A stretch of 44,882 bases of DNA, taken from the NCBI GenBank assembly GCA_023250585.1, contig JAHFAK010000004.1, positions 1 through 44,882 on the forward strand, written 5' to 3'. A model generated the notes under the pieces. It was not told where the DNA came from. It saw only the letters and a list, made by a program, of their open reading frames with translations, and made no database searches. This stretch comes from Deltaproteobacteria bacterium. GTDB lineage: Bacteria > Bdellovibrionota_F > JAHFAK01. This document shows, piece by piece, positions 2,932 to 40,826 of the stretch. Both the position numbers and the translations under genes were made by a program. Numbering within the stretch: the first letter of the stretch is position 1; each line of letters starts with the position of its first letter.

Positions 2932-3058
2932 GGTAGTAAGGGAGTAGGTAAGTTCTAAAGAAGTATGTATATCGACGTCGCTTCCATAATACTTTTAAGA
3001 ACAGGAAAGCGCGCTCGATATACATACTTCTTTAGAACTTACCTACTCCCTTACTACC
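2932..3058 (-). repeat. Giant hairpin element 1 (variable-arm family I)
   Basis: Left arm 2932-2975 and right arm 3015-3058 are a perfect 44-bp inverted repeat. The 39-nt head (2976-3014), read on the minus strand, matches the heads of elements 2 and 3 almost base for base (one end base and one internal base differ from element 2). The arm end next to the head, TATATCGA, is shared; farther out the arm sequence is specific to this copy. It lies between divergent mutL and the phosphatidyltransferase gene. There is no T tract, no open reading frame and no obvious target duplication. Weaker flanking complementarity exists (CTCA 2920-2923 with TGAG 3059-3062). Confidence 0.93.
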
Positions 3059-3112
3059 TGAGGGATTACAAAGCATTACAATTTTTCCTGCAAGATACTA
3101 CACAATTTATGT

Positions 3113-3661
3113 ATGATGAAAACATCTGATATTATCAATCTTCCAAATGTAATTACTTTTTTGCGAGTGCCGTTAGCATTCTTATGGTTAGCTTATTATC
3201 AAGATCATGGCATTCAATTAGGAATTATTGTTGTCATTATTCTCACCGATATTATTGATGGCTATTTAGCCCGAAAGCTCAGACGTGTGACTGACTTCGG
3301 TAAAATCTTTGATCCTATTTGTGATAAATCAATATCGCTCTTCGCATTTTTTTGTTTCTACTTTTTAGGAAAAATTAACGGCGGTCAGTTATTTATATTC
3401 ATTGCTCGAGATGTTTTTATTTTCATGGCAGTGATTTTTTATTTATTATTTTTTAGAAAATACAAAATAAAATGGCGTGCGCGATTTTTAGGTAAGCTGA
3501 CCACAGCCGCGCAATTCCTTGCTATATTTGCCTTTACGCTATCTTATGATTATTTTCTAGAACTTTTCATTCTTGTTTTTGTTTTTTCTTTTTTATCTAT
3601 CATGGATTACTCATTATTTTTTATTTCTTCATTGAAAAAAAGAGAAGTTGTCGCAGAATAA
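3113..3661 (+). CDS. CDP-alcohol phosphatidyltransferase (PgsA-like)
   Basis: This 182-residue integral membrane enzyme transfers a phosphatidyl group from CDP-diacylglycerol to an alcohol, probably glycerol-3-phosphate. The full family signature is present: D46-x2-D49-G50-x2-A53-R54-x8-G63-x3-D67-x3-D71, whose aspartates bind two metal ions. Several hydrophobic segments follow, as expected for a six-helix protein. Length fits phosphatidylglycerophosphate synthase (PgsA), but a cardiolipin-synthase or other head-group specificity cannot be excluded, so no symbol is given. Two adjacent ATG codons (3113, 3116) are possible starts and neither has a good ribosome site. Giant hairpin element 1 ends 54 nt upstream. 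Confidence 0.9.
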   Translation: MMKTSDIINLPNVITFLRVPLAFLWLAYYQDHGIQLGIIVVIILTDIIDGYLARKLRRVTDFGKIFDPICDKSISLFAFFCFYFLGKINGGQLFIFIARDVFIFMAVIFYLLFFRKYKIKWRARFLGKLTTAAQFLAIFAFTLSYDYFLELFILVFVFSFLSIMDYSLFFISSLKKREVVAE

Positions 3662-3766
3662 AATAATTCTTTGGAAATGCTTGTATTTAGATGACATGAC
3701 GGTGTACACGAAAAATATTATTTTGTTTAAATTTACGACAAAAATAAAAATATTGTACAACTTTGT

Positions 3767-3795
3767 TTGACATAGAAAAAAAAATACTTTAAAAT
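3767..3795 (+). promoter_or_regulatory. Strong sigma-70-type promoter for the lysine-rich peptide
   Basis: A consensus -35 box TTGACA (3767-3772) is followed after 17 nt by TAAAAT (3790-3795), five of six matches to TATAAT, in a very A/T-rich setting. Transcription should start near 3802, giving a leader of about 45 nt before the ATG at 3847. Confidence 0.75.
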
Positions 3796-3846
3796 TTGAT
3801 TTATAGAGCGAAGTGCAGACTATAACTTTAAACAAAGGAGGCCATC

Positions 3847-3912
3847 ATGGCAGCTAAGAAAAAAACAAAGAAGAAAGCAACAAAGAAGAAAGCAACAAAG
3901 AAAAAGAAATAA
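3847..3912 (+). CDS. 21-residue lysine-rich basic peptide
   Basis: A 21-codon frame encodes a peptide with 13 lysines in KKK(A)T blocks, resembling the tails of histone H1-like bacterial proteins. Three signals argue that it is expressed: an ideal AAAGGAGG ribosome site (3834-3841) 5 nt before ATG, a near-consensus promoter at 3767-3795, and a terminator hairpin at 3949-4010. Such a short peptide with this composition could bind DNA or RNA as a compaction peptide, but that is inference. It could also be a remnant of a longer H1-like gene, although the strong signals and clean ends argue against decay. It is monocistronic. Confidence 0.7.
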   Translation: MAAKKKTKKKATKKKATKKKK

Positions 3913-3948
3913 CGTTGCTTTTTTAAATTTCTGTTAGAACATTTCATC

Positions 3949-4010
3949 AATAAGACAATCCCAACAACTTAATTCTAAATATGAACTTCTTAGGGGTTGT
4001 CTTATTTTTA
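3949..4010 (+). terminator. Hairpin terminator after the lysine-rich peptide
   Basis: A 14-bp stem (3949-3962 with 3993-4006, one G-T pair) with a 30-nt loop is followed by a T-rich run. It sits between the convergent peptide gene and the leftward FG-GAP lipoprotein gene, and A-rich sequence on its left side could let it serve both strands. Confidence 0.6.
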
Positions 4011-4024
4011 TAAGTTTCTTAATC

Positions 4025-6640
4025 TTATTTAAACACATAGACTGCTCCGCTATTAGTCACACTATTATCGCTTTGTGTACCGTTAATACCTGTTGCATTA
4101 CTGTCTTCATTATATGCACCAACAACAATCGTATCACCTGATATTTTTACCTCTATTCCAAAATAATCAGTTGACCCCGGATTAGAAGCTTTTAAATATG
4201 CTCGCTGAGTCCAGGTAGAACCACTGCGTGTAAATACATATGCCGCGCCACATTCACTACAAGTATTATCATTTTGATCTCCATCTATGCCAGTTGCATT
4301 ACTGTCATCAGCATAGGCACCAACAACTATAGTATCGCTTGATATTGCTACGCTCCATCCAAAGTAATCGAACATTTCCAGATTAGAAGCTTTCAGATAG
4401 GCTTGCTGACTCCATGTTGTTCCACTTCGAGTAAATACATATGCAGCTCCACTACCATCTACACTATTACCGCTACCGTCTTCTTGATAAGCACCAACAA
4501 CAATAGTATCTCCTGATATTCCTACACTCCACCCAAAGCTATCATCCGCTTCAGTATTAGAAGCTTTTATATAGGCTTGTTGACTCCATGTAGATCCACT
4601 TCTTGCAAAAACATATACTGCTCCACTATTGCTTGCACTATTATCGCTTGCATTTCCATCAATTCCTGTTGCACTACTGTCTTCGTAACGACTTGCGATA
4701 GCAATAGTATCCCCTGATATTACTGTACTCCATCCAAATTGATCATTAGCTTCAGTATTAGAAGCTTTCAGATAGGCTTGCTGACTCCATGTAGTTTCAC
4801 TGCGGGTAAATACATATGCCGCGCCACAATTAGTCACGCTATTATCGCTTTGATTCCCACCTACTCCGGTTGCATTACTGTCTTCGAAGTAAGCACTAAC
4901 AACAATAGTATCTCCTGATATTCCTACGTTATTTCCAAATTTATCAAATGCTCCAGTATTAGAAGCTTTCAGATAAGCTTGCTGACTCCATGTAGTTCCA
5001 CTGCGGGTAAATACATATGCCGCTCCACTATTGCTTGCACTATTATCAGTTTGATTCCCACCTACTCCGGTTGCATTACTACTTTCTAAATAAGCACCAA
5101 CAACAATAGTATCTCCTGATATTGCTACGCTATTTCCAAAATTATCCCCCGCGCCAGTATTAGAAGCTTTGAGATAGGCTTGTTGACTCCAGGTAGAACC
5201 ACTGCGTGTAAATACATATGCCGCGCCACTATCAGCAGCACTATTATTAGTTGAATCGCCATTGATTCCTGTTGCATTACTGTCTTCGTTATAAGCACCA
5301 ACAACAATAGTATCTCCTGATATTGCTGTGCTATATCCAAAGAAATCAGATGCTCCGGTACTAGAAGCTTTCATATATGCTTCTTGTGCAGTAAGGCCTC
5401 GTGTTACTACAATAGTATATGTTTTTTGAGTGGTTTGATCTTCTGCTGTTACAACAACCGTTATCGTATTGGTTCCTAAATTCATAGTTATACTACTCGA
5501 AGCATTTCCTGAAGTTACACTGCTACCATTGACCGTTATACTTGCTCCAGATTGTTCTTTGGTCGGAGTTACCGTGATTGATGATGTACCTATACCTACA
5601 CTCGCCGTATATGAGGTGATTGCAGCAGAAAATGCAGGAGCTACAGTTCCCGATGATAAAGTTAATGCTGATAGATTTGCATTACTCGATGCAACTACAT
5701 CAGTGATTGTAACACTCACTCCGCTTTCCATTTCACCTGCCGCATTTTTTGTATAGACGAGTAAATAAGTAGCATTAGTTGGAATTGCCGTATTTGCGGG
5801 GATAGCATACGTAAGATTACTACCTGATTTAGCAATTGTTGAGATTGCAGATTGTCCTGAAAGTTTCGTTGATGAATTACTTCCGTAGTATAAAACATAG
5901 TGAGTAATATCAGTTTCATTAGATGCTTTAGTTATGGATACGTTTCCTGCAATTTCATTCGCTGTAATATCCGTATCGGTAAATGAAACTCCCTGGGCTG
6001 CGTATTGCGGTACTGCAACATCTATAATTGCCGTGCTAATAGAAGAGCTCATTTCCCCTACGCTATTTTTAGTAAAGACGAGTAAATAAGTAGCATTTGT
6101 TGGAATTGCAGTATTTGCCGGGATAGTATAGATTAGATTACTACCCGTTTTCGCAATCTCTTTAATAGCACTTTGTCCGGCGAGTTTTGTCGTTGCATTA
6201 CTTCCCCAATATAAAACATAATCGGTGATGTTGTCTTCATTAGCAGCCTTTGTAATTGAAACTGTTCCTCCTAGTTCATTTAAAGTATAATCGCTATCAG
6301 TAAAGGTGATATTCCCTGCTTTATCTTCAGGTAAGGTAGCTGCTTTAGCATTGCTTTCTACGACTGTTGTACTGCTGGTAGTAGTAGTTGTTGTTGTGCT
6401 CTCAGCTGCTACTTCGTCATCTGAAGTAGCTTCCTCATCTTCTGTTGCTTCAGTGCTGTCTGTCACTGCAGCGGTATCTTCTTGGGTTGAGTCTTCTGTT
6501 GTTGTTATACTCGTATCATCATTAGGATCAGGTTGTTCGCTTGTACTACATCCAGGGGTTACACTTCCTCCTCCTAGACATAAACACAGTAAGAATAAAA
6601 AAAGATACGTAAGCAGTGATTTGGTAAGTATAGATTTCAT
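4025..6640 (-). CDS. Large secreted lipoprotein with cadherin-like and seven FG-GAP-like repeats
   Basis: This 871-residue envelope protein begins with a hydrophobic signal segment (about residues 8-22) and a cysteine at about residue 31 that could be lipidated, although the lipobox is atypical. A Ser/Thr/Asp/Glu-rich linker to about residue 105 follows, then two near-identical modules of roughly 105 residues (to about 317), a cadherin-like beta-sandwich of the PF12733 type (about 322-414), and seven tandem repeats (421-871). Each repeat contains SGDTIVVGAY, a calcium-loop-like DSNATG segment and GAAYVFTRSG, typical of FG-GAP beta-propeller blades; seven repeats would close one propeller. Surface adhesion or ligand binding is the likely role (inference). 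It is transcribed alone, leftwards. Confidence 0.88.
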   Translation of the reverse strand: MKSILTKSLLTYLFLFLLCLCLGGGSVTPGCSTSEQPDPNDDTSITTTEDSTQEDTAAVTDSTEATEDEEATSDDEVAAESTTTTTTTSSTTVVESNAKAATLPEDKAGNITFTDSDYTLNELGGTVSITKAANEDNITDYVLYWGSNATTKLAGQSAIKEIAKTGSNLIYTIPANTAIPTNATYLLVFTKNSVGEMSSSISTAIIDVAVPQYAAQGVSFTDTDITANEIAGNVSITKASNETDITHYVLYYGSNSSTKLSGQSAISTIAKSGSNLTYAIPANTAIPTNATYLLVYTKNAAGEMESGVSVTITDVVASSNANLSALTLSSGTVAPAFSAAITSYTASVGIGTSSITVTPTKEQSGASITVNGSSVTSGNASSSITMNLGTNTITVVVTAEDQTTQKTYTIVVTRGLTAQEAYMKASSTGASDFFGYSTAISGDTIVVGAYNEDSNATGINGDSTNNSAADSGAAYVFTRSGSTWSQQAYLKASNTGAGDNFGNSVAISGDTIVVGAYLESSNATGVGGNQTDNSASNSGAAYVFTRSGTTWSQQAYLKASNTGAFDKFGNNVGISGDTIVVSAYFEDSNATGVGGNQSDNSVTNCGAAYVFTRSETTWSQQAYLKASNTEANDQFGWSTVISGDTIAIASRYEDSSATGIDGNASDNSASNSGAVYVFARSGSTWSQQAYIKASNTEADDSFGWSVGISGDTIVVGAYQEDGSGNSVDGSGAAYVFTRSGTTWSQQAYLKASNLEMFDYFGWSVAISSDTIVVGAYADDSNATGIDGDQNDNTCSECGAAYVFTRSGSTWTQRAYLKASNPGSTDYFGIEVKISGDTIVVGAYNEDSNATGINGTQSDNSVTNSGAVYVFK
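4028..5380 (-). repeat. Seven tandem coding repeats (about 201 bp each)
   Basis: The 3' half of the lipoprotein gene consists of seven head-to-tail units encoding 67, 67, 67, 67, 58, 67 and 58 residues. Copies share long stretches at DNA level, so unit gain or loss by recombination is possible. The fifth unit has a 9-residue deletion in the loop after the strand segment; the seventh simply lacks the C-terminal connector. Confidence 0.9.
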
Positions 6641-6906
6641 GATGCCCCCTAAATTTAATTGTACCTAAATTAAGATAGGTACTATCCTTAAATATTAGTA
6701 TATCATTATTTTATTATAAGTGCAATAGAATTAGCTATGAGATACATCACGTCTCCTTGGATAAGAAGACCTTTTGGCTTAATTGCTTGAATTTATTGGT
6801 ATATTTCAATAACATTTATCTGACGATTCTTACATTTTTTTCTTGCATAGAGCGTAATTTTTTGGTAGCTAAAATAAGTTTACTAATATGGTTATGTAGC
6901 TTATGG
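6641..6906. other. AT-rich non-coding region upstream of the nusA leader terminator
   Basis: I see no credible gene here. A hydrophobic frame starting with TTG at 6757 runs into the terminator and lacks a ribosome site. The best promoter-like signal is TTGCAT (6843-6848), 17 nt, then TAGCTA (6866-6871) preceded by a TG extended -10 motif; it would give a leader starting near 6878. Upstream signals for the leftward lipoprotein gene must also lie here. Confidence 0.4.
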
Positions 6907-6934
6907 AGGCTTTCTCGAGAAAGCCTTTTTTTTT
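6907..6934 (+). terminator. Intrinsic terminator in the leader of the nusA operon
   Basis: A perfect 20-nt palindrome (6907-6926, AGGCTTTC core) is followed by nine T residues on the plus strand (6926-6934), a textbook intrinsic terminator. No gene precedes it on this strand, so it ends either a short untranslated RNA or a leader. It lies about 150 nt before nusA and directly abuts structured element A, suggesting attenuation (inference). Confidence 0.85.
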
Positions 6935-6935
6935 A

Positions 6936-7069
6936 TTAATGAAACTCTACAAACGCCCATCTACGGCGTTAGTCAGTTAAGATCCTCCTTGCGGCGTAAC
7001 TACAATGTACGCCTCAGTCGGCATCTTAACTGACTGCCTTGTATCTGAGCATTTGTAGAGTTTCATTAA
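6936..7069 (+). repeat. Structured element A (variable-arm family II), nusA leader
   Basis: Outer arms 6936-6953 and 7052-7069 pair perfectly over 18 bp. Inner arms 6971-6983 and 7023-7035 pair perfectly over 13 bp. The apical stem GCGTA/TACGC (6994-6998, 7008-7012) closes a 9-nt loop. The junction motifs CCATCTACG (6957-6965) and GTATCTG (7041-7047) are unpaired and are shared with element B at 20711-20834. The element ends 17 nt before the nusA start codon, so it is probably in the nusA 5' leader. Confidence 0.85.
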
Positions 7070-7086
7070 AATAATGGAGAAACATT

Positions 7087-8436
7087 ATGTCTGAATTAAA
7101 TAGAATTTTGGATCAGGTTGAAAAAGATAAAGGGATTGATAAAAAAATCCTTATTGAAGCCCTCGAGCTAGCTATGCTTACTGTTGCTCAGAAAAAACTG
7201 GGAACTGCGAGAGAAATTGAAGCTCAGTACAATGAGGAAGCAGGCGAAATAGAACTTTTTGAATTTAAAACTGTTGTTGATAAAGTAGAAAATCCTCAAG
7301 TGGAAATGACTATTAAGGAAGCAAAGGAAATAGATCCAGATGCTCAAGTTAATGATAGCCTTGGAGTTAAACTCGATTCAGCTGAATTCGGAAGAATTGC
7401 AGCGCAGGCAGCCAAGCAAGTTATTATTCAAAAAGTTCGAGAAGCAGAAAGAGATATTGTATTTAATGAATATAAGGATCGCAAAGGAGAAGTTGTTACT
7501 GGAATTTTGCGTCGAGTAGAGCACAAGGATTTAATTATTGATCTAGGAAAAACCGAAGCCGTTCTTCTCGAGGAAGAACAAGTAGCAAAAGAACGCTATC
7601 ATACGGGAGATCGTATTCAAGCCTATATTTCCAATGTTCATAAAATATCACGAGGCCCTCAAATTGTACTGTCGAGAATTCATCCGGGATTATTAATTAA
7701 ACTTTTTGAAACAGAAGTTCCTGAAATTTATGAAGGTGTAATTAAAATAAAAGGCGCCGTACGCGAACCTGGCGATCGAGCAAAGATCGCAGTATATTCA
7801 GAAGATTCGGATGTTGATCCCGTTGGAGCATGCGTAGGGTTAAAAGGATCTCGTGTTCAAAATGTTGTACAAGAGCTACGAGGAGAAAAAATTGATATTG
7901 TTGAATGGGATCCAGATCCTGCAAAGTTTGTATGCAATGCCATTGCTCCTGCAGAAGTTCAAAAAGTAATTATTGATAAAGAAGAAAAGCTCATGCAAAT
8001 TATAGTGGGAGATGATCAGTTATCTCTTGCAATTGGTAAACGTGGTCAAAACGTTCGTCTTGCTGCTCAATTAACTGGTTGGAAAATAGATCTTCATTCA
8101 GAATCACAGGTAAAAAAGAAAACGGAAGAAACGAAGAAAATCTTGCTTAAATTACAGGATATGGACACTGCTCAAGCCGATCTTTTACTTAAACAGGGAT
8201 TTTCCGATGTGCTTGATATACAGGCATTAAGTGATAATGATTTGTCTGATATGTTGGGTATTAGCGTTGATCGTGCTAAAAATATTCTAGAAAATCTTAA
8301 AAAGGTTGTAGAAGAAGAAAAGAATAAAGTTACAAAAGAGCAGGAAGAAAAAGTCACTGAAGTAAAGAATGAAACGGAATCAAAAGAGTCACATTCAGAA
8401 CCTACATCAGTAGAAAATAACGATACCAAAGAATAA
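7087..8436 (+). CDS. nusA: Transcription termination/antitermination protein NusA
   Basis: NusA binds RNA polymerase and nascent RNA, controlling pausing, termination and antitermination. The 449-residue protein has the N-terminal polymerase-binding domain, an S1 domain (about 135-200) and two KH domains, including GACVGLKGSRVQNVVQEL and AIGKRGQNVRLAAQLTGW. A single C-terminal helix-hairpin-helix segment and a short charged tail follow. A GGAGA ribosome site lies before the ATG. It heads the operon with infB 25 nt downstream. The usual upstream partner rimP is absent; a terminator and structured element A occupy that place instead, hinting at autoregulated attenuation. Confidence 0.97.
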   Translation: MSELNRILDQVEKDKGIDKKILIEALELAMLTVAQKKLGTAREIEAQYNEEAGEIELFEFKTVVDKVENPQVEMTIKEAKEIDPDAQVNDSLGVKLDSAEFGRIAAQAAKQVIIQKVREAERDIVFNEYKDRKGEVVTGILRRVEHKDLIIDLGKTEAVLLEEEQVAKERYHTGDRIQAYISNVHKISRGPQIVLSRIHPGLLIKLFETEVPEIYEGVIKIKGAVREPGDRAKIAVYSEDSDVDPVGACVGLKGSRVQNVVQELRGEKIDIVEWDPDPAKFVCNAIAPAEVQKVIIDKEEKLMQIIVGDDQLSLAIGKRGQNVRLAAQLTGWKIDLHSESQVKKKTEETKKILLKLQDMDTAQADLLLKQGFSDVLDIQALSDNDLSDMLGISVDRAKNILENLKKVVEEEKNKVTKEQEEKVTEVKNETESKESHSEPTSVENNDTKE

Positions 8437-8461
8437 TAGGTACGTGGAGATACAAAAACGA

Positions 8462-12822: not shown

Positions 12823-12829
12823 AAGGACT

Positions 12830-24827: not shown

Positions 24828-24958
24828 TGAAGCAGGAGTGGGCGATATATGTTCTTTTTTAATTGTATATCGATCGCGCTTTCCTGTTCTTAAAATTATT
24901 ATGGAAGCGACGTCGATATACAATTAAAAAAGAACATATATCGCCCACTCCTGCTTCA
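24828..24958 (+). repeat. Giant hairpin element 2 (variable-arm family I)
   Basis: Left arm 24828-24873 and right arm 24913-24958 form a perfect 46-bp inverted repeat. The 39-nt head (24874-24912) has its own short stem, CGCTT-(T)-CC with GGAAGCG, and a loop containing GTTCTTA. The head orientation is opposite to element 1 and the same as element 3. It fills most of the 161-bp gap between the divergent nuclease and kinase genes, ending 8 nt before the kinase start codon, so kinase initiation signals must lie inside it or be absent. Confidence 0.94.
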
Positions 24959-24966: not shown

Positions 24967-26604
24967 ATGAATAAAGTCACGGTAAAGATCAACGGGAAAG
25001 TCGAGAGCATCCCAAAATATACAACGATTTTAGAACTTCTTGAAGAGCAAGGAATTAAGTATTTTCCTCATTGTTATGCTGCTCTTGTTAACAACGAGCT
25101 TGTCAGTTTAAGTTATGTATTACATGCCGATGTAGAAATTAAACTTTTAGACTACACTCATACGCTTGGCGTGTCAGTATATAAACGAAGCGTTTCATTT
25201 TTATTGGCACGAGCACTCTTTGAAATGCAGCGAAATACACGTCTTGCCATTAATCATTCCATGGGAAATGCTTGTTATTATGATCTTTTCACTGATGCCC
25301 CAGTTACTGATGAGTTGTTATCAAACATTGAAAACAAAATGAATGAGATTGCGCGGCGTAATGAGCCTATTAAACGGAAAACTTTTACCGTTGAAAAAGC
25401 TAAGGCATTTTTTACTCAACGCGCGTATACTGATAAAGTAAGGCTTTTAGAGCATATGAATAAAGATGACAAAGTCGGAATTTATTCGTGTGGAAAATTT
25501 TATGATTTAGATTATGGGCCGCTTGTCGCTTCAACCGGCTTTATTACTCACTTCGAACTCAAAACCTATGGACAGGGATTTTTGCTCCTCTTTCCAAATG
25601 AGCAGCATTTCCCTCAAATTGCAGAGCTTCAAGATATGCCTAAAGTTTTTCATGTTTTTCAAGAAAGTAAACGTTGGGGAAAAATTTTACAGGTTAATAA
25701 TGTAGGAAAGCTCAATGAGTTTATTGTTAAAGATGATTATCGAGAATTGATTTATATCTCAGAAGCACTTCATGAAAAAAAGATTGCAGAAATCGCTGAT
25801 AATATTGCTGAGCATAAGAATACGAAACTTGTACTGATTGCGGGGCCTTCGAGCTCAGGAAAAACAACATTCTCACAATGGCTTCGTATCCACTTGCGTG
25901 TTAATGGGCTCCGGCCCGTTGTTTTATCGCTCGATAATTATTACATCGATCGTGATAAGAGTCCTCGAAATCCTGATGGATCCTACAATTTTGAAGCAAT
26001 TGAATGTTTGGATTTAGAGTTCTTTAATGCCAATGTTATTGATCTCTTAAAAGGAAAAGAGGTTGAGCTTCCTAAATATAGTTTTAAAGAGGGAAGGCGA
26101 AAATCAAATGGAACCAAACTACGCATTTTTGAAGATCAATTGCTCATCGTTGAAGGCATTCACGGTTTGAATGAAAAACTAACATTTGCGGTTCCGGCTG
26201 AAGCAAAATATAAAATCTTTATTAGTGCGCTTACGCAGATTACAATTGACGATCACAACCGTATTTCAACAACTGATTCGCGACTTATTCGCCGAATTGT
26301 TCGTGATCATCAATTTAGAGCATACAGTGCGCAAAATACCATTAAAGCGTGGCCAAGTGTGCGTCGTGGGGAAGAGCTTTATATTTTTCCTTTCCAAGAA
26401 GAAGCTGATATTATGTTTAATTCAGCACTTTTGTATGAACTTGCAGTTTTAAAGCCGTATGTTCTTCCTTTGCTTGCAGAAATTAAGCAAGAAAGCGATG
26501 AGTATAGTCACGCTAAACGTCTTATGGATTTTTTGAAACTCTTCAAAGACATTCCTTCCGATGAAGTTCCCAATACATCGTTACTCAAAGAATTTATTGG
26601 GTAA
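24967..26604 (+). CDS. TGS-domain nucleoside (uridine) kinase
   Basis: The 545-residue protein combines an N-terminal TGS-like domain (1-65, as in threonyl-tRNA synthetase), a middle synthetase-like segment and a C-terminal uridine/cytidine kinase domain with P-loop GPSSSGKTT (293-301), VVLSLDNYYIDRD and VEGIHGLNE. This architecture occurs in spirochaetes, Bacteroidetes, Thermotoga and others. It probably phosphorylates uridine or cytidine in pyrimidine salvage. No Shine-Dalgarno is present because giant hairpin element 2 ends 8 nt before the ATG. Confidence 0.9.
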   Translation: MNKVTVKINGKVESIPKYTTILELLEEQGIKYFPHCYAALVNNELVSLSYVLHADVEIKLLDYTHTLGVSVYKRSVSFLLARALFEMQRNTRLAINHSMGNACYYDLFTDAPVTDELLSNIENKMNEIARRNEPIKRKTFTVEKAKAFFTQRAYTDKVRLLEHMNKDDKVGIYSCGKFYDLDYGPLVASTGFITHFELKTYGQGFLLLFPNEQHFPQIAELQDMPKVFHVFQESKRWGKILQVNNVGKLNEFIVKDDYRELIYISEALHEKKIAEIADNIAEHKNTKLVLIAGPSSSGKTTFSQWLRIHLRVNGLRPVVLSLDNYYIDRDKSPRNPDGSYNFEAIECLDLEFFNANVIDLLKGKEVELPKYSFKEGRRKSNGTKLRIFEDQLLIVEGIHGLNEKLTFAVPAEAKYKIFISALTQITIDDHNRISTTDSRLIRRIVRDHQFRAYSAQNTIKAWPSVRRGEELYIFPFQEEADIMFNSALLYELAVLKPYVLPLLAEIKQESDEYSHAKRLMDFLKLFKDIPSDEVPNTSLLKEFIG

Positions 26605-32325: not shown

Positions 32326-33093
32326 TCATTGCTTTTTCATTTTTAATGTTTCGATGAATTTTTTATTTTCTGCAATGAGTTCTTGGAGTCTTTTTATAAC
32401 TTTTTGAGTATCAATTCCGTATTTTTTAAAGACTTTATAGGTATAAGGGTCAATTGTTTGATCTGAGGTAAGTAATAAAAAATGTTTGTTGATTAATTCA
32501 AGTCGATCAGTAGAAACGACATTCACCAAGGTTTTAATTCTTCCAGGATTACCTTCTTTTAAAGCTCCAATGAATTCTGGCTCAGTTTCTATAAAGGTAT
32601 TTTGTAACTCATGCATAACGGCGTAAAGCAATAAACCAAAATCAGAAATCAGTGTACTACTCAGAGTAAATCCACGAATATAAAGAGGAGGATTAGAATC
32701 CTTTTCTTGTAGTGTATATGAATACATAAGATAGGGAACAGGAGAGAGCTCTATGTTTTTTAAATGTTCCTTTCCCATGGTTTCTCGTATTGTTGTAATC
32801 GATTTTTCGCTTGTAACAAGAACGGACAATTTAGAAAATTTTCCAAGCGTTCCTTTGCATGACCCAGTACCGAGGACCAACTGGAATGCAGTCTTAATAA
32901 TATCTTCCAAACCTTTTGGTTTTTCTATAGATGTTTCATCAAGAGGAGTTTTTTCAAAGAAATTAACCTCTAAAGAAGGACAGCCGGTTTGATCATCCTG
33001 CTTTTGAACTTGATCTTGAGACGGGATGGCTGCTAAGGCCAGATTGAAATTTATACAAAGAACCAAAATAGATAGTTTTATTTTTGTTACCAT
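32326..33093 (-). CDS. Exported protein of unknown function
   Basis: The 255-residue protein has a signal peptide (cleavage near ALAAIP, about residue 22) and a GAAAGGA ribosome site. No known domain is recognised. A central segment, YAVMHELQNTFIETEPEF, has some resemblance to a metalloprotease-style HE helix, but the full HExxH motif is absent. It is 27 nt upstream of the OmpA-VWA gene and probably cotranscribed with it, so it may be an envelope partner. The 211 nt before it contain only AT-rich sequence. Confidence 0.75.
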   Translation of the reverse strand: MVTKIKLSILVLCINFNLALAAIPSQDQVQKQDDQTGCPSLEVNFFEKTPLDETSIEKPKGLEDIIKTAFQLVLGTGSCKGTLGKFSKLSVLVTSEKSITTIRETMGKEHLKNIELSPVPYLMYSYTLQEKDSNPPLYIRGFTLSSTLISDFGLLLYAVMHELQNTFIETEPEFIGALKEGNPGRIKTLVNVVSTDRLELINKHFLLLTSDQTIDPYTYKVFKKYGIDTQKVIKRLQELIAENKKFIETLKMKKQ

Positions 33094-33304
33094 ATCAATC
33101 CTTTCATTTCTTTTGTAAATGTCTCATACAGAAAAATGAACGCAAAAAGCGTGCCAATGTATTGAAAAAATAACCAACTGAATTTATTAGTGTTTTTATT
33201 TATGAATTACTTGTCGTTTAGATTTATTGCGACTTTTAAGAGATAATATTGGGACAAAATCGCCTTAAATTGAAACATTTAACGGTAAGTCCTCCGTATC
33301 ATGT

Positions 33305-34444
33305 TTAAATATATTCACCAGACCATAGATTTTCAATAAATAATTTCCATGAAATAATTTTTATCCCAGCAACGGTGCGAGGCTCTTTTTCTAAACATAC
33401 TAAGACACAATTTTTTACTGGCCCGTCTTCTTTTAAAGCTTTAAGAAAACGAAGATCTCCTTCATGGACACGATCAGAGCCCTTGATTTCAATTGCCAGT
33501 TCTTTATCTCCTAGAATAAAATCAACTTCTTGCCCTGTGCTTGTTCTCCAGAAATAAATAGGCACATCCGGATTTTTATAAGTTATATAAGCTCTAAGTT
33601 CCATTAATATATACTGCTCAAATGATTTACCAAATTCCATAGTTTTTAAAGCAGGTTTTCGTTTTGCCAGATAATTTGTAACTCCAACATCAAACAAATA
33701 AAATTTTTCCGTAGTAATCATTCTCCTATCTTTGGATTTGCCCCATGGCTGAATTCTGAAACCAATATATGTATCTTCGAGAATATCGAAATAAGTTCTT
33801 ACAACCTTATGTGAAACACCTGTGTCCCTTGCAATATTAACATAATTAATCAGTTCGCTTGATGTAATGGCTGCAACTCTTAAAAATTCTGAGAAAGCGG
33901 GCAAATTTTGAATTAATCCCTCTTGTGCTATTTCTTCTTTCAGGTAATCAAAAATATATGCTCTTAAATCTTCAATTGGACTAGGGGACAAAAAATGAGG
34001 TGGCAGCAAACCAGAAATCATGATTTTTTCTAAATCAAATCCTGAAACTTCTACTAAAGAAAGTGGCAACATTACTCTCCGCCAAGCGCGACCACCTAAA
34101 AGGTTAGAATGACCTCTTTTTAATTTTCTTGCACTCGATCCTGTAAGCAAAAATGATATTCCACTGTTTTCAATTAACCAATGCACTTCATCTAAAATTG
34201 CGGGAATTTTTTGAACTTCATCTATGACTATTAATCCTTTATAATCTTGATGTCTTTCTCTTAATAACGAAGGCCGAGAAGCATATTCGGCAAAAACATC
34301 TGTTTTAAGAAAATCAATTAATAGAATATTTTTTAGATTATGATTGATCCAAAAAGTTTTTCCAACTTTACGAGGTCCCCATAAAAAGGCAGATTTATTT
34401 TCTGGAAGATTAAGCTCGAAAAGTCTTTTGATAATTTTACTCAT
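33305..34444 (-). CDS. AAA_14 / DUF4143 ATPase
   Basis: The 379-residue protein has Walker A GPRKVGKT, Walker B LIVIDEVQ and sensor LLTGSSARKLKRG, then the C-terminal DUF4143 domain with GQEVDFILGDKELAIEIKGS, a degenerate PD-(D/E)XK-like fold. Such ATPases are widespread in mobile accessory regions and of uncertain function. The predicted message starts at or next to the ATG, since the -10 region ends 6 nt before it. A 20-bp palindrome covers the promoter. Confidence 0.88.
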   Translation of the reverse strand: MSKIIKRLFELNLPENKSAFLWGPRKVGKTFWINHNLKNILLIDFLKTDVFAEYASRPSLLRERHQDYKGLIVIDEVQKIPAILDEVHWLIENSGISFLLTGSSARKLKRGHSNLLGGRAWRRVMLPLSLVEVSGFDLEKIMISGLLPPHFLSPSPIEDLRAYIFDYLKEEIAQEGLIQNLPAFSEFLRVAAITSSELINYVNIARDTGVSHKVVRTYFDILEDTYIGFRIQPWGKSKDRRMITTEKFYLFDVGVTNYLAKRKPALKTMEFGKSFEQYILMELRAYITYKNPDVPIYFWRTSTGQEVDFILGDKELAIEIKGSDRVHEGDLRFLKALKEDGPVKNCVLVCLEKEPRTVAGIKIISWKLFIENLWSGEYI

Positions 34445-34449
34445 AAGGT

Positions 34450-34489
34450 AAATTTATCTAGATAAATTTGCTATGTCAAGAAATTTATC
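34450..34489 (-). promoter_or_regulatory. Palindromic operator and leaderless promoter of the DUF4143 ATPase
   Basis: On the minus strand TTGACA (34479-34474) is followed after 17 nt by TAAATT (34456-34451), six nt before the start codon. A perfect 20-bp palindrome AAATTTATCTAGATAAATTT (34450-34469) covers the -10 region, and a third half-site (34481-34489) lies upstream of the -35 box. This suggests repression by a dimeric regulator encoded elsewhere or by the ATPase itself. Confidence 0.65.
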
Positions 34490-34508
34490 CGTCGACTTTT
34501 CTAGTATT

Positions 34509-36068
34509 TTATAGAGAAGCTGTTCTTTTTTTGAATTCTCTTTCGAGCTGTTGGGCGGTTTGATTAAATTTATTTTTGTCCTTCCAGGTATCAATTGGAT
34601 TCAAGAGCTCTGGCGGGACGCCGTCACAGGTTACGGGATACGATAAACCAAAAATGGGGTCGGTTTTGAAGGTTGCATCAGAGAGTTCACCGGAAAGAGC
34701 CGCATCGATCATCTTGCGAGTATATTTAATATGAATTCGTTCGCCTTCGCCGTAGGGTCCTCCGGTCCAGCCGGTGTTGACAAGCCAGCATTGCGCTTTA
34801 TGTTTTTCAATTTTTTCTTTAAGCATGTGGCCATATTTTGTAGGTTTATGAACCATAAACGGAGCGCCAAAGCAGGTTGAGAAAGTCATTTCTACATCAG
34901 ATTTCATATCTCGCTCAGTGCCTGCAATTTTTGCCGTATAACCCAAAAGGAAATGCTCTACTGCTTGCGCGGGCGTAAGTTTTGAAATAGGAGGAAGAAC
35001 ACCAAATGCATCGCAGGTAAGCATAATGATATTTTGTGCATGACCTCCTCGTTCTTCAGGAATAATATTTTTATTAAATGAAATAGGGTATGCCCCGCGA
35101 GTATTCTCTGTATAACTATTATCATCAAGGTTAACAATTCTGGTTTCATCATTCATGACGACGTTTTCTAAAACAGTTCCAAACATATGGGCGCATTCAT
35201 AAATATCGGGTTCTCGTTCTTTGGAAAGCTTAATCATCTTAGCATAGCAGCCACCTTCGAAATTGAATACACCATTTTCGCCCCAGCCGTGTTCATCATC
35301 ACCAATCAATCCACGCTGTGGGTCTGCTGAAAGACTTGTTTTGCCGGTGCCTGATAAGCCAAAGAATACTGCGGTATCTCCAGTTTTTCCTACATTGGCA
35401 GAACTATGCATGGTAAAGACTCCTTTTAACGGGAGTAGATAGTTAAGAATGGTAAAAACACTTTTTTTAATTTCTCCTGCGTAGCATGTCCCACCAATAA
35501 GAATAATTTTTTTCGCAAAATTAATAATAACAAATGCCTTTGATCGTGTCCCATCACGGGTAGGAGCTGCTTCAAATCCATTGCAGCTTATGATAGTAAA
35601 ATCGGGAGTATAATTACGGAGTTCTTCCTTTTTATTGATAGTAATAAACATATTTTGGGCAAAAAGGCTTTGCCATGCTCGGTCGGTAATAACGCGTATA
35701 TTCATTCGATATGAAGGATCTGCGCATACATAGAGGTCTTGTACAAATGCATCTTTACCCTCAAGATACTGAGTTACTTTCGAGTAGAGGGCGTCGAATT
35801 TGTTTGTCTCAAAAGGTATATTTACTTTACCCCAATCAATAGTATTTTCAGAAGTTGGTTCTTTAACTATAAATTTATCTTGTGGAGATCTTCCCGTATA
35901 AGGACGAGTGTCGACGACTAAGGGACCGGCATATGAGATTTTAGCTTCCCCGCGTTTAGTCGTTTCTTCATAAAGTTCAGCTCGAGAAAGGTTATAAAAT
36001 ACATGATGAGTATTTTTAATACCTATCCCTTTAAGTTTTTCTCGGATTTCAAAAGGGTCGCGATGCAT
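34509..36068 (-). CDS. pckA: Phosphoenolpyruvate carboxykinase (ATP)
   Basis: This 519-residue enzyme interconverts oxaloacetate and phosphoenolpyruvate with ATP/ADP. Motifs include PYTGRSPQDKF, the kinase loop GLSGTGKTSLS, metal-binding GDDEHGW and the adenine-site region near GPYGEG. A strong AAAAGGAGGG ribosome site precedes the ATG. It is upstream of nothing obvious in an operon; dxs ends 32 nt upstream of it on the same strand, so cotranscription is possible. With icd-gltA it points to gluconeogenic or amino-acid-based carbon flow. Confidence 0.97.
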   Translation of the reverse strand: MHRDPFEIREKLKGIGIKNTHHVFYNLSRAELYEETTKRGEAKISYAGPLVVDTRPYTGRSPQDKFIVKEPTSENTIDWGKVNIPFETNKFDALYSKVTQYLEGKDAFVQDLYVCADPSYRMNIRVITDRAWQSLFAQNMFITINKKEELRNYTPDFTIISCNGFEAAPTRDGTRSKAFVIINFAKKIILIGGTCYAGEIKKSVFTILNYLLPLKGVFTMHSSANVGKTGDTAVFFGLSGTGKTSLSADPQRGLIGDDEHGWGENGVFNFEGGCYAKMIKLSKEREPDIYECAHMFGTVLENVVMNDETRIVNLDDNSYTENTRGAYPISFNKNIIPEERGGHAQNIIMLTCDAFGVLPPISKLTPAQAVEHFLLGYTAKIAGTERDMKSDVEMTFSTCFGAPFMVHKPTKYGHMLKEKIEKHKAQCWLVNTGWTGGPYGEGERIHIKYTRKMIDAALSGELSDATFKTDPIFGLSYPVTCDGVPPELLNPIDTWKDKNKFNQTAQQLEREFKKRTASL

Positions 36069-36100
36069 ACCGCCCTCCTTTTCTGTTGAATGTGATTAAT

Positions 36101-38101
36101 TTAAATGTTCTTTACTACTTCTTTATTAAGAACTGATGGTGATTCGATAAAATCACTTTCAGAAGGTTCTTTCATGGTTGAGAGAAATTCTTTTTGGATA
36201 GTGTGCGGTAACAGCGAACGTATCGTTTTGCAGATACGTTCTGGATCAAGCCCAATTTCTTTTCTCAAGATGGATTGACTTCCATGCTCGATATAACGAT
36301 CTGGAACACCAAAACGTTTTACCGGGACTGCAATACTTCCATGGGTATCATTTAATAGTTCAAGAATTGCTGATCCAAATCCACCGGCAAGTACATTTTC
36401 TTCTACGGTTACGATGAGTTTTGCGTCTTTTGAAAATTTGAAAATTAATTCAGTATCAAGAGGTTTTACAAATCGCGCATTGATAACAACGGTATTGATA
36501 TTTTCTTTGTTGAGAAGCTCTGCCGCTTCAAGGCTTGGCTGAACCATATGACCGAGTGCGATAATAAGAACATAATCTTTATTTGAATCCATTTTAATAA
36601 CTTCCCCTTTTCCAATAGGAATGTTTTTAAATGATTCATCCATTGGTATTCCAAGTCCTTCGCCACGTGGATAACGAATTGCTTTCGGGCCTTCAAACGT
36701 CGTTGCGGTATAGAGCATATGTTGGAATTCATTTTCATCTTTTGGTGACATGACAACCATATTGGGAAGCTCTCGTAAATAGGTAATGTCGAAAACTCCA
36801 TGATGAGTCGGCCCATCATCACCTACAAGTCCAGCACGATCCATGGCAAAACATACATTGAGTTTTTGAAGACAGACATCATGTACAAGTTGATCAAAAG
36901 CACGCTGTAAAAAGGTTGAGTAAATGCATGCAAATGGTTTTATTTTTTGAAGTGATAAACCCGCAGAAAAAAGCACCGCATGTTGTTCAGCTATTCCTAC
37001 ATCATAAAAACGTTCGGGAAAGGCTTCGGCAAATTCTTTCAAGCCCGTTCCTTCTTTCATCGCAGCGGTAATCGCAACAACTTTGTCATCCATTTTGGCA
37101 AGTTTTTGTAATGTATTACCAAGCACTTTGGTATAGGTAATCTTCGCATTTTTTTTAGGAATAGCCTTGCCTGTTTTTCGATCAAATGGAGTAAATGCGT
37201 GGCATTTTAATGGGTCACCTTCTAAGAACTCGCATCCATGGCCTTTTTCAGTAACTACATGAAGAAGAATCGGACCTTTGAGTCCTTTAATATCTTTTAA
37301 AGTTGTAACTAATGTTTCAAGCTTGTGTCCATCAATTGGCCCAATATAACGTAACCCTAAACATTCAAAGAAAAGGCCAGGAGAAAAAATTCCTTTAATA
37401 GCCTCTTTACTCTTTTTGGCTACGGCATAAATTTTATCACCAAATGTAGGAATCGATTTCATCAAATGTTTTACTTCCTCACGGACGAGATTCATGTAAT
37501 GTCCTGTTGTCGCACGGCTAATAAATGAGGAAAGTGCGCCTACATTTGGAGAAATACTCATTTCATTATCATTGAATATAATAATAATATTTCTGTTCAG
37601 TTCGCTGACATTATTAAGACCTTCATACGCAACACCGCCCGTCAATGCTCCATCACCAACAACTGCTATAGTATATGATGAATCACCGTTGAGGTGTTTA
37701 GCTTCTGCAAGTCCTAATGCACTGGATATTGCAGTGCTTGCATGGCCTGCGCCAAAGATATCATGTTCGCTTTCATCACGTTTGCAAAATCCAGCAATCC
37801 CTTTATATTGTCGGAGTGTTTTGAAATCTTCGTATCGTCCGGTTAACAGCTTATGCGGATATGCTTGATGAGATACATCCCAAAAAATATTATCTCGAGG
37901 AGAATCAAATAAGTAATGTAAAGCGAGGGTCAATTCAACAACACCAAAGCTTGCTCCTACATGGCCTCCGGTTTGCGAAACAACGTCGAGAATATATTCA
38001 CGAATTTCTGATGCCAACATTTCAAGATTAGGAATATCTAAACTTTTTAAATCCTGGGGTACTTTTATGTCTGAAAGTGGGATGTGTTTTTTTGTTTGCA
38101 T
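36101..38101 (-). CDS. dxs: 1-deoxy-D-xylulose-5-phosphate synthase
   Basis: Dxs makes the first intermediate of the MEP isoprenoid pathway from pyruvate and glyceraldehyde-3-phosphate using thiamine diphosphate. The 666-residue protein has VVGDGALTGGVAYEGLNN (TPP/Mg site), FNDNEMSIS, RFYDVGIAEQHAV and MDRAGLVGDDGPTHHG. The C-terminal extension beyond the usual 620-640 residues is short and charged. It is the last gene of the xseB-ispA-dxs unit, starting 11 nt after ispA. Confidence 0.97.
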   Translation of the reverse strand: MQTKKHIPLSDIKVPQDLKSLDIPNLEMLASEIREYILDVVSQTGGHVGASFGVVELTLALHYLFDSPRDNIFWDVSHQAYPHKLLTGRYEDFKTLRQYKGIAGFCKRDESEHDIFGAGHASTAISSALGLAEAKHLNGDSSYTIAVVGDGALTGGVAYEGLNNVSELNRNIIIIFNDNEMSISPNVGALSSFISRATTGHYMNLVREEVKHLMKSIPTFGDKIYAVAKKSKEAIKGIFSPGLFFECLGLRYIGPIDGHKLETLVTTLKDIKGLKGPILLHVVTEKGHGCEFLEGDPLKCHAFTPFDRKTGKAIPKKNAKITYTKVLGNTLQKLAKMDDKVVAITAAMKEGTGLKEFAEAFPERFYDVGIAEQHAVLFSAGLSLQKIKPFACIYSTFLQRAFDQLVHDVCLQKLNVCFAMDRAGLVGDDGPTHHGVFDITYLRELPNMVVMSPKDENEFQHMLYTATTFEGPKAIRYPRGEGLGIPMDESFKNIPIGKGEVIKMDSNKDYVLIIALGHMVQPSLEAAELLNKENINTVVINARFVKPLDTELIFKFSKDAKLIVTVEENVLAGGFGSAILELLNDTHGSIAVPVKRFGVPDRYIEHGSQSILRKEIGLDPERICKTIRSLLPHTIQKEFLSTMKEPSESDFIESPSVLNKEVVKNI

Positions 38102-38112
38102 ACATCTACTCC

Positions 38113-39006
38113 TTAATAATCGCGTTGTATAATGAATTCAGCTATTTTTTCAAGTATTGTTGTATCAGCATCGATCTTGCGAAGAGAATCGATAGCAATT
38201 CTTAAACATTCTTTTGATTCGATTTTAGATGCTTCAAGGCCTAAGAGTTTAGGAAAGGTAGTTTTCTCTTTTGCTATATCACTTTTTTGATCTTTGCCGA
38301 TTTTTTTACTGCCTTCAATATCAAGTACATCATCTTTTATTTGAAATGCTAAACCAATTGATTGCCCAAAATGTGCTAAATGTTCTTTTGTCTTTGCATC
38401 TTTGCCGGCAAGGGTTGCCCCAATAAGTACTGACGCTTCAATGAGTTTGCCGGTTTTTAACGTGTGAAGTGTCTTGAGTTTATCTAATGGTATATCTTTT
38501 GCTTCATAGAAGAGATCAAGAACTTGACCTCCAACCATACCATGATATCCAGAGCCATGTGACAAGAGTTTAATACATTCAATTTTGATTTCAGCATCAA
38601 AATATGGACATGAGGCAATTTGATTAAAAGCTTCGGTTTGAAGAGCATCAGAGGCAAGAAGAGCTGCTGCTTCACCAAATTGTTTATGATTTGTTGGGTT
38701 CCCTCGCCGTAAATCATCATCGTCCATACAGGGTAAATCATCTTGCATAAGTGAATAGCAATGAATGAGTTCTAAGCTTGCAGCAATTTGAATTGCATGT
38801 GTTGAATTATTTCCAAAAGCCTCGTAAGTGGCAAGACATACTATAGGACGAATTCTCTTTCCGTTTGCGAGGAGGCTATAGTGAATACTCTCGATTAATT
38901 GCTGTAAATCATGAATCCGTGTTCCAAAAATTTTTTTTAAGTGAATATCTATTACTTCCTTCTTGATTGCTAGGTAGGAAGTAATAGAGAAAGGGTTAGT
39001 TGGCAT
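38113..39006 (-). CDS. ispA: Polyprenyl (farnesyl-type) diphosphate synthase
   Basis: The 297-residue protein condenses allylic and isopentenyl diphosphates. The first aspartate-rich motif is LMQDDLPCMDDDDLRRG (DDxxxxD, as in bacterial short-chain synthases) and the second is FQIKDDVLDIEG. Size and motif spacing fit farnesyl or geranyl diphosphate synthase. It overlaps xseB by 11 bp and precedes dxs, a typical proteobacterial order. Confidence 0.95.
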   Translation of the reverse strand: MPTNPFSITSYLAIKKEVIDIHLKKIFGTRIHDLQQLIESIHYSLLANGKRIRPIVCLATYEAFGNNSTHAIQIAASLELIHCYSLMQDDLPCMDDDDLRRGNPTNHKQFGEAAALLASDALQTEAFNQIASCPYFDAEIKIECIKLLSHGSGYHGMVGGQVLDLFYEAKDIPLDKLKTLHTLKTGKLIEASVLIGATLAGKDAKTKEHLAHFGQSIGLAFQIKDDVLDIEGSKKIGKDQKSDIAKEKTTFPKLLGLEASKIESKECLRIAIDSLRKIDADTTILEKIAEFIIQRDY

Positions 39007-39220
39007 CAGGGAAGTCCTCTTCTTTTACTTCTCCATTCGCAGCCGTTTGTAAAATGGTAATTTTTTTTGATGTTGCATCAAGAATAGCATTACACTCATT
39101 TACAAGCTTAATTCCCAGTTCGTATTTTTTAATAGATTCTTCAAGATCGAGTTCATCTTTTTCCAGGAAACTTACGATTGATTCAAGTTCTTTTACTTTT
39201 TCTTCAAATTTTGACGCCAT
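38996..39220 (-). CDS. xseB: Exodeoxyribonuclease VII small subunit
   Basis: The 74-residue protein is the small, helical subunit of exonuclease VII, with FEEKVKELESIV and LDLEESIKKYELGIKLVNEC as family patterns. It overlaps ispA by 11 bp, so translation is coupled. The large subunit xseA, normally just upstream, is not in the window; the preceding gap goes straight to an unrelated peptidase gene. Confidence 0.92.
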   Translation of the reverse strand: MASKFEEKVKELESIVSFLEKDELDLEESIKKYELGIKLVNECNAILDATSKKITILQTAANGEVKEEDFPDAN

Positions 39221-39323
39221 AATTTTTTCAGAATCCTTAAGAAAAAACTTTTAGTGTATCTATTTACAGAAGTCAATTTTTCTTGATGATCTGTATAGTA
39301 GACATCATTTAGAGACAATTGCT

Positions 39324-40691
39324 TTACTTCTGAGTCAGTAATTCAAAATATTTTACAAATGCTTTGACGCCTCCTTGAATTTGCTCCCAGGCAAAGGATT
39401 CATCTGGCCCATGGTAACCATCTGAAGGAAGGCTAAGACCCATAAACAGAATTGGTTTTTGGAGTATTTTATCCATTGAGGCAACTGCACCTATGGATCC
39501 TCCTTCGTGAACTTCTGCTGGGCTTATACCAAATGCAAAGTGTAAAGCTTCTTTTATTTTATTCCGCAAAGGAAGATCTCTCGGAGCTGCATAGGGTGCC
39601 AGTACAGCTTCTTTAATAACTTCAATATCAGGATTGAGCTTGTGAATATAATTTTTAAATAAAGTGAAGATTTCATCGGGATTTTGAGGTGGAACTAAAC
39701 GGAAGCTTACTTTAGCTTCCCCCTGTGGAGGGACAACCGTTTTTACTCCTGCTTCTTGATAGCCTCCGGCTATTCCATGGACTTCAAAGGTAGGCATGGC
39801 CCAAATTCGTTCGACAACATCGGAAAGTTTTTCATATCGTAAGTGTGATAATCCAAGGGCTTTTTTAAAATTTTCAACGGTAAAGCCTGATTGTACAAAA
39901 TGTTCTCGTTCTTCATCACTAATTCTTGTCCATGTTTTTTCGAAGCCAGGAATGGTAATATTTCCCGTTTTTGCATCAAAGCACTGCGAAATTACTGCGA
40001 TGAGTTCTGCGAGTGGATTTCGTGCTGCCCCGCCGCCTACACCCGAATGAACATCTTTTGCGCCTGTTTGCAATTTCATAATAATGGTAAGAAGGCCTCG
40101 TAAACCCATAGTGACTGAAGGTTTACCGCGATCAATCCAAATAGTATCGGATACAAGAATGGAATCCGCTTTAATAGTGGTTTTTGCTTTCTCAAGAAAT
40201 TCCATAAAATGGGGGCTTCCAATTTCTTCTTCGAGTTCCCAAATGAATTCAATATTGATCGGCAGTTTCAGTGCTCGTGCAATTTTTGCTGCCCAGAATG
40301 CAGTCATGGCAGGACCTTTATCATCGGTTGTACCACGTGAATAGAAACGACCTTCATGTTCGGTAAACGTAAAAGGTTCGCGCGTCCATCCATCTTTACC
40401 TTTTGTTGCAGGCTGGACATCGAGATGATTATAAATTGCCACGGTAGGAGCATTATCGCTGTAATGAAAATGTCCGAATACGATGGGATTGCCTTTCGTC
40501 GCATATACCGTAACTTCGGCGCCGGCTTGTTTTAAAAACTCGCGTGCAATGCGAGCTGTTTCTTCAATATCTTTTTTGTGTTCAGGATGTGAACTAATTG
40601 AAGGGCTCTCGACTATTTTTTTATAATCAGCTAAAAATACTTTTCGTTCCTTTTCAATCAATTCATCAATACGTTTATGATCAATACCCAT
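39324..40691 (-). CDS. M20 family metallopeptidase (dipeptidase)
   Basis: The 455-residue zinc peptidase has the M20 motifs: NHLDVQPA (first metal His/Asp), TTDDKGP, the catalytic EEEIGSPHF, SDTIWID and a C-terminal HEGGSIGAVA. It matches the branch hydrolysing dipeptides (ArgE/DapE/PepV-related; often annotated 'dipeptidase' or 'M20/M25/M40'). It is monocistronic, transcribed leftwards, with giant hairpin element 3 starting 22 nt upstream of its start codon. Confidence 0.93.
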   Translation of the reverse strand: MGIDHKRIDELIEKERKVFLADYKKIVESPSISSHPEHKKDIEETARIAREFLKQAGAEVTVYATKGNPIVFGHFHYSDNAPTVAIYNHLDVQPATKGKDGWTREPFTFTEHEGRFYSRGTTDDKGPAMTAFWAAKIARALKLPINIEFIWELEEEIGSPHFMEFLEKAKTTIKADSILVSDTIWIDRGKPSVTMGLRGLLTIIMKLQTGAKDVHSGVGGGAARNPLAELIAVISQCFDAKTGNITIPGFEKTWTRISDEEREHFVQSGFTVENFKKALGLSHLRYEKLSDVVERIWAMPTFEVHGIAGGYQEAGVKTVVPPQGEAKVSFRLVPPQNPDEIFTLFKNYIHKLNPDIEVIKEAVLAPYAAPRDLPLRNKIKEALHFAFGISPAEVHEGGSIGAVASMDKILQKPILFMGLSLPSDGYHGPDESFAWEQIQGGVKAFVKYFELLTQK

Positions 40692-40712
40692 ATAGACTCC
40701 TTTGTATATGTT

Positions 40713-40826
40713 ATGAGAGGTTATATATTCTTTTTTTGTTTTATATCGATCGCGCTTACCCCGTTCTTAGTATTTTTATGGAAGCGACGTCGATATAAAA
40801 CAAAAAAAGAATATATAACCTCTCAT
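40713..40826 (+). repeat. Giant hairpin element 3 (variable-arm family I)
   Basis: Left arm 40713-40749 and right arm 40790-40826 are perfectly complementary over 37 bp. The 40-nt head (40750-40789) matches elements 1 and 2; it keeps GTTCTTA and the GGAAGCG half-stem and replaces the bulged T by A, preserving the bulge. It is in the divergent gap between the M20 and M23 peptidase genes. Confidence 0.93.

Follow-up and report, generated by a model that had tools for sequence, protein, structure and literature searches.

The stretch of DNA analysed here (the window) is 44,882 nt long and is the whole of contig C156 (JAHFAK010000004.1) from the genome of a Deltaproteobacteria bacterium (GTDB lineage Bdellovibrionota_F; JAHFAK01). 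The 2.24-Mb genome assembly (GCA_023250585.1) has 164 contigs and is 96.7% complete. The window contains three long hairpins, elements 1 to 3 (Table 1), each with a conserved head on top of a stem. The first-pass annotation had described these three elements as having a shared head and perfect stems, and we found them just as described: there are no mismatches in the 127 base pairs of the stems (44, 46, and 37 bp). Elements 1 to 3 rank at the top among the inverted repeats of the window, with detected arms of 52, 54, and 45 nt; these longer arms take in the base of the head and have 93–94% pairing. The head folds into a small hairpin (CGCTT-[T]-CC / GG-AAGCG), which has a bulge and an 18-nt apical loop and is joined to the stem by a 3x3 internal loop (KCG versus ACG). 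A chance origin of these elements is excluded. Compared to dinucleotide shuffles, the fold of element 2 has z-scores of -18.6 and -21.0 on the two strands, and a 21-nt sequence from the edge of the head occurs 3 times (0.01 expected). Element 2 takes up the whole spacer between two divergent genes, which lie 21 and 8 bp away. Where an element fills the entire spacer, as here, a local effect is possible.

Table 1. Positions of the hairpin elements in the window, and of related features elsewhere in the genome.
Feature	Position	Strand	Comment
8-bp target-site duplication AAAGCATT, left copy	2905..2912	.	identical to 3070-3077
Element 1 (whole class I mini-transposon, 157 bp)	2913..3069	-	GTAACAG... 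(end A) on the left, hairpin, ...GGGATTAC (end B) on the right
Element 1 left arm	2932..2975	.	44-bp perfect stem; from inverted-repeat and pairing analysis
Element 1 head	2976..3014	-	39 nt, type A; the tip, with its bulge and internal loop, is conserved
Element 1 right arm	3015..3058	.	
8-bp target-site duplication AAAGCATT, right copy	3070..3077	.	
Element 2 left arm	24828..24873	.	46-bp perfect stem; class II, without transposon ends
Element 2 head	24874..24912	+	39 nt, type A
Element 2 right arm	24913..24958	.	stops 8 bp ahead of a gene's start codon (ATG at 24967)
Element 3 left arm	40713..40749	.	37-bp perfect stem; class II
Element 3 head	40750..40789	+	40 nt, type B: CTTACCCCGTTCTTAGTATTTTTATGG
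Element 3 right arm	40790..40826	.	
Scars	L018:2554-2588, L028:2477-2512, L088, L089, L096		
Y1-transposase genes	L118, L119, L120, L121		one IS200-like (145 aa), three of 189-224 aa
GGATCC-type family	L085, L107, L109, L112, L140-L143, L152, L153, L156, L161, L168		

These elements belong to a family with about 75 copies in this genome, and it is likely that they are palindromic mini-transposons whose arms are homogenized, and whose head is inverted, by copying between the arms at the DNA level. Pattern searches of the genome found 10, 21, and then 68 places. A covariance model that was built from 50 copies gave 78 head-strand matches, of which 73 were above 84 bits, plus one half-copy, and we extracted 75 copies for analysis. 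This removes the concern, raised in the first-pass annotation, that there might be no further copies of the head. The search of relatives that it had also proposed gave nothing: the covariance model found no copies in one other genome from the phylum, and a pattern search found none in 40 genomes (39 of them from other phyla). Exact matches to 20-mers in GTDB contigs and to 17-mers in IMG/VR did not reveal a copy elsewhere (records from the genome itself may be left out of these searches).

The copies fall into two classes. In class I (about 40 copies, including element 1), the hairpin lies between two unlike ends, which are end A (GTAAYNGCTCAGTTAATGGGGgAGTtAGGG; GTAAYNGCTCAGTTAATGGGG..) and end B (GTAATSCCTCAGTTATTAGGG). 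In class II (about 33 copies, elements 2 and 3 among them), the hairpin is the same but the ends and the target-site duplications are missing, and many of the copies sit tightly between genes. The class I unit is usually 157 bp; this is the length of element 1 and the commonest length among the remaining copies. The hairpin core of class I has a 37-bp stem, as in class II (about 37 bp), and both types of head are present in both classes, while the consensus of the stem is ..ATATGTTCTTTTTTTATTTTCTATCGA in class II and ..ATGTTCTCAAAAAGTATTTCTATCGA in class I. With the threshold for detecting ends set from background flanks, both ends (one A and one B) are present in 36 of the 73 copies with a usable stem and missing from 29, and the remainder are partial (a few have one weak partial end).

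Class I copies were inserted as 157-bp mini-transposons with a duplication of 8 bp of the target: 8-bp direct repeats with 0–2 mismatches flank 29 copies, and many of these repeats are exact. The first-pass annotation had contrasted the hairpins with the inverted repeats of transposons, which keep their sequence between copies. For half of the family this contrast fails, as element 1 and the rest of class I have GTAA ends and 8-bp duplications. The terminal inverted ends of class I (GTAACAGCTCAGTTAATG / GTAATCCCTCAGTTAT, starting with GTAA and CTCAG-like) and the length of the duplication match the miniature inverted-repeat transposable elements (MITEs) of the ISBst12 group of the IS66 family. 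In ISDge4, which is from this group, the ends are GTGACTACTCAGCA and GTAACTGCTCAGCA, with an 8-bp repeat (PMC12898284). The MITEs of the group are like class I in having GTAA...CTCAG ends, 8-bp repeats, and no coding capacity. From the ends, we infer that an IS66-family (ISBst12-group) transposase acts in trans on class I. Unlike these MITEs, our family has a perfect inverted repeat of 37 bp, topped by an asymmetric head that can be found inverted, and half of the family lacks the ends: class II has neither the GTAA ends nor the target duplication. We also looked for an autonomous partner at the terminal inverted repeats and found only truncated copies, scars, and a sister repeat with a GGATCC palindrome. 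In each of the five scars, 35–43 bp of end sequence, fused together, is all that lies between two 8-bp duplications that are intact or nearly so. Because the scars keep the duplication with only end sequence inside, the hairpin can be deleted.

The target duplications provide a clock for each insertion, as the two duplications are identical at the time of insertion. In the 29 class I copies with duplications, 15 of the 232 duplicated sites (6.5%) now differ, while the arms of these copies have 12 mismatches in 1,117 positions (1.07%; Fisher p = 5.5e-6). Just three copies, in which the arms seem to have recombined, contribute 8 of these 12 mismatches. So, the arms have been kept alike after insertion. 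Arms that are more alike than neutral sites of equal age are what we would expect from a template-switch palindrome. Selection on the class I copies should be negligible in this comparison. Across the 69 copies with stems of at least 28 bp, we found 34 mismatches in 2,658 positions; 49 of the stems are perfect and 20 have mismatches.

The stems differ widely from copy to copy, as the first-pass annotation had noticed, but they are not wholly unrelated, since there are two classes of stem and each has a recognizable consensus. Between class I copies, the divergence is 0.16 for the stems, 0.17 for the unpaired ends, and 0.07 for the heads (0.04–0.06 within one type of head). If we compare nearest-neighbour copies, 125 positions changed in both arms and 18 positions changed in one arm.

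Some copies retain footprints of copying from one arm to the other. The internal loop is fully paired ("healed") in four copies, in both directions: it was healed by right-to-left copying in three copies (L022+, L031, and L057: TCGACGTCGCTT) and by left-to-right copying in one (C58:1065, L101: AAGCGCGCTCGA). Tracts were also copied outward past the hairpin, either from end A into end B (element 1 and L028) or from end B into end A (L019 and L032). For instance, end B of element 1 carries the A-type tract GGTAGTAAGGG (GTAATCCCTCAGGTAGTAAGGG), while its unconverted sister (L063/L122) has GTTATTAGGG (L063). The stem of element 1 is 44 bp, instead of the usual 37 bp, because the A tract was copied into end B. 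Directional copies of several bases at once, together with inversion of the loop, are hallmarks of a template-switch palindrome, and both are seen in this family.

The head inverts often. Relative to ends A and B of class I, the head is in the AB orientation in 17 copies and in the BA orientation in 19 copies. In 15 of 27 nearest-neighbour pairs, the heads have opposite orientations, and some of these pairs have stems that are just one position apart. On a tree built from the ends and one arm, the orientation needs 13 changes, compared to a mean of 11.5 for shuffled labels, so the orientation is randomized with respect to relatedness. As a control, we considered the GGATCC repeat, which has the same ends and imperfect arms. 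Its orientation is kept in 21 of 22 copies (21:1). Since this repeat does not flip, the inversion depends on perfect arms.

The identity of the arms, the paired changes, the copy footprints, and the head flips can all be explained by one process: exchange or template switching between the arms. The sequences of the copies strongly support arm copying and head inversion; the molecular step can be suggested from the same sequences. In the scheme that we propose, the class I hairpin, lying between ends A and B, was inserted with them as a 157-bp unit, with the transposase probably acting in trans. After the insertion, one arm would be recopied from the other at the DNA level. The simplest molecular step would be template switching during replication within the hairpin, and intramolecular recombination between the arms is an alternative. 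The process that copies the arms would also turn the head round in place. The stem would drift freely in sequence and yet stay paired. The head has stayed asymmetric even though copying between the arms can heal it, probably because copies with a damaged head stop multiplying, and the head would then matter for mobility. Alternatively, exchange between copies might conserve the head, as both types of head are found in both stem classes.

In a cell that lacks SbcCD, a nuclease that acts on hairpins, long hairpins would be able to persist. In this genome we found no match to SbcC and none above the cut-off to SbcD, while the control genomes were positive, but the assembly is incomplete, and this suggestion rests on it. 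The SbcD-like protein at L172, a 251-aa open reading frame, was rejected: it resembles a small single-domain phosphoesterase and is below the cut-off for SbcD. If SbcCD is truly absent, this would tie the survival of long palindromes to the processing of hairpins in a way that can be tested. The window does hold a MutL-like gene (1125-2861), while SbcC and SbcD were not detected in the genome.

Several observations weigh against our interpretation. All of the data are from a single genome, without dated empty sites or orthologues, and the short-read assembly may mask mixed head orientations in the population. Healed loops are present in just 4 of about 73 copies, though frequent copying predicts many, so we must assume an extra constraint on the head. 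The transposase was not found, which sets our family apart from the IS66/ISBst12 MITEs: there are no matches to PF03050 (IS66 transposase) in the 96.7%-complete assembly, which is broken at repeats. The mobilizing enzyme is therefore named from the ends, and we file class I under IS66-like ends only. Finally, class II lacks the ends and the duplications, though its heads are just as conserved, so a single mechanism of mobility does not cover the family.

Class II could be an independent mobile hairpin, recognized by its head alone (through the internal loop and the bulged base) in a folded single-stranded form, with any stem being acceptable if it is paired. Class I would then be a capture of this hairpin by an IS66-type mini-transposon. 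We consider this scenario doubtful, though not far-fetched.

A related idea is that both classes of the family are similar to the repetitive extragenic palindromes (REPs) and were moved by Y1 (RAYT-type) transposases, with class I as a secondary fusion to transposon ends. Like REPs, our hairpins are intergenic, are present in many copies per genome, and have a conserved part, and REPs may likewise be mobilized by Y1 enzymes. The genome has four matches to Y1 transposases, three of which are about the size of RAYT proteins (189–224 aa). Also, class II has no target duplications, the base of its stem is rich in GGAG-like purines, and the two classes share the 37-bp stem. However, neither the head nor the stem is present in the flanks of any of the four Y1 genes, and we found no link between the hairpins and these genes. 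REP hairpins are far shorter (20–40 bp) and have a conserved sequence, while the stem in our family is at least 37 bp and is free in sequence. And class I is already explained by its own ends. Overall, a REP-like origin seems unlikely. Inverted copies of another sequence, GGTGGGGACCGACATATG, lie on both sides of one of the Y1 genes (L121).

Instead of copying, selection could act on the folded DNA, as a cruciform or a single-stranded hairpin that a protein binds or cuts, with unpaired copies being lost. This would fit with a conserved head (including its bulge and internal loop) on variable stems, and it would account for the unbiased strand of the copies. But the arms match 6 times better than the duplications of the same copies, which selection on copies already inserted could not easily achieve. 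It also leaves the healed loops, the outward tracts, and the inversion of the head unexplained, and the scars show that the hairpin can be lost. We view this explanation as improbable.

The same hairpins might function as RNA, for instance as a 5'-UTR structure, a small RNA, or a processing site, with pairing kept by compensatory mutations. The covariation on a conserved loop is indeed very strong. In the alignment of 50 copies, both sides have changed in 28 of the 30 pairs of the main stem, the whole structure has 494 doubly changed cells (versus 159 in shuffles), and the covariation score is 0.68 (versus 0.16). Stable folds are predicted for both strands, and some class II copies are 10–25 bp or less from start codons. 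But compensatory evolution of RNA is expected to pass through G-U pairs and to favour transitions, which is not the pattern here: the main stem has hardly any G-U pairs (about 5 in 1500 cells of the alignment), the stem mismatches include 11 G-U and 6 A-C, and about half of the paired changes between nearest-neighbour copies are transversions (63, versus 59 transitions). This disfavours selection on RNA. Nor is the placement of the copies consistent with respect to strand: the head strand of class II copies is unbiased relative to neighbouring genes that run in the same direction (9 to 9), copies are found between divergent, same-direction, and convergent genes alike, and half of the class I heads are inverted. 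An Rfam scan of the window matched a tRNA and none of the hairpins. It is very unlikely that these are structured RNAs. The first-pass annotation had left open whether the pairing reflects selection or repeated copying between the arms; the comparison of arms to duplications and the directional multi-base copies favour copying, while selection on RNA is disfavoured by the rarity of G-U pairs, the transversions, and the lack of strand bias.

A general role as terminator or promoter was also rejected, given the mixed gene context and the unbiased strand of the head. Among the open reading frames that flank the copies, no gene family consistently recurs.

Although the genome is in 164 contigs, several of which end in related repeats, an artefact in which palindromic chimeras from the assembly or library equalize the arms can be dismissed, as about 75 copies have unique flanks, duplications on both sides, and differing stems, 20 of 69 stems have real mismatches, and a whole element (about 115–157 bp) fits inside an ordinary read.

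It's worth comparing this family to known cases of DNA-level change in hairpins. Inversion of the loop and correction of the stem are described consequences of template switching, whose role in maintaining short RNA stems is "less clear" (PMC8794818). Template-switch hairpins and quasipalindrome correction (PMC8794818 and the studies in bacteria that it cites; see PMC6649704 for mitochondrial palindromes of Nematomorpha) resemble our family in having copied arms, multi-base paired changes, and occasional inversion of the loop. The difference is that a single bacterial genome here holds about 75 copies of the same hairpin, that many of the copies have an insertion clock, and that the unlike outer ends show the direction and the extent of copying. 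Hairpin loops in chloroplasts (trnH-psbA) flip often, with a homoplasious orientation and a ratio of 19:16 (PMC2903610). As in these minute inversions, a loop between inverted repeats flips in our family (17:19), but the chloroplast inversions involve one locus in many species, and here we have many paralogous mobile copies with a conserved head in one genome. In Wolbachia, recombination between the terminal inverted repeats of insertion sequences (IS) is reported to cause inversions at 9% of IS loci (PMC3004938). There too, the content of a transposon is inverted by exchange between its inverted repeats, but in our family the orientation is fully randomized and the repeats that exchange are internal arms.

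Evidence that template switching maintains natural hairpin arms has so far been circumstantial. This genome offers a natural record of a mutation process that is otherwise usually studied in laboratory constructs, with about 75 parallel replicates: many copies have a clock, the ends record copying, and the head records inversion. It also provides a warning, as covariation is the standard proof of RNA structure and can be overwhelming in DNA repeats that have no function as RNA. The near-absence of G-U pairs, together with the share of transversions, is a simple way to discriminate covariation at the DNA level from that of RNA.

Other repeats are found near the hairpins or resemble them. The control repeat belongs to a second family of mini-transposons, of about 157 bp, with GTAA ends and usually 8-bp repeats, in which an unrelated palindrome of the GGATCCCGYGGTCAAGCCRCGGGATGACA type (GGATCC) replaces the hairpin head. 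This family also has shorter derivatives (91–107 bp). Another repeat of about 125 bp, GATACTAAGTTGCATTCAAAATGATAA...GTTTGAATGCAACTTAGTATC, adjoins some of the hairpins (L018, L050, L061, and L133), and in L030 and L077 it forms a junction with the hairpin head at GCGAC. We had considered the neighbouring repeats at L018, L061, and L050 as a route to an empty site, but this is just another repeat family beside the hairpin. A longer repeat (GAAGGTGTGAAGAAATCAAGAGAGAGCT... with GTCATTGCGAAAACCTGAAGGGTTTGAAGCAATCTC) lies directly against one end of some copies or takes the place of that end (L021, L025, L027, and L166). Back in the window, positions 6931-7074 contain two nested hairpins (34 bp, 82%; 28 bp, 79%), which lie upstream of an open reading frame at 7087 and look like another repeat family.

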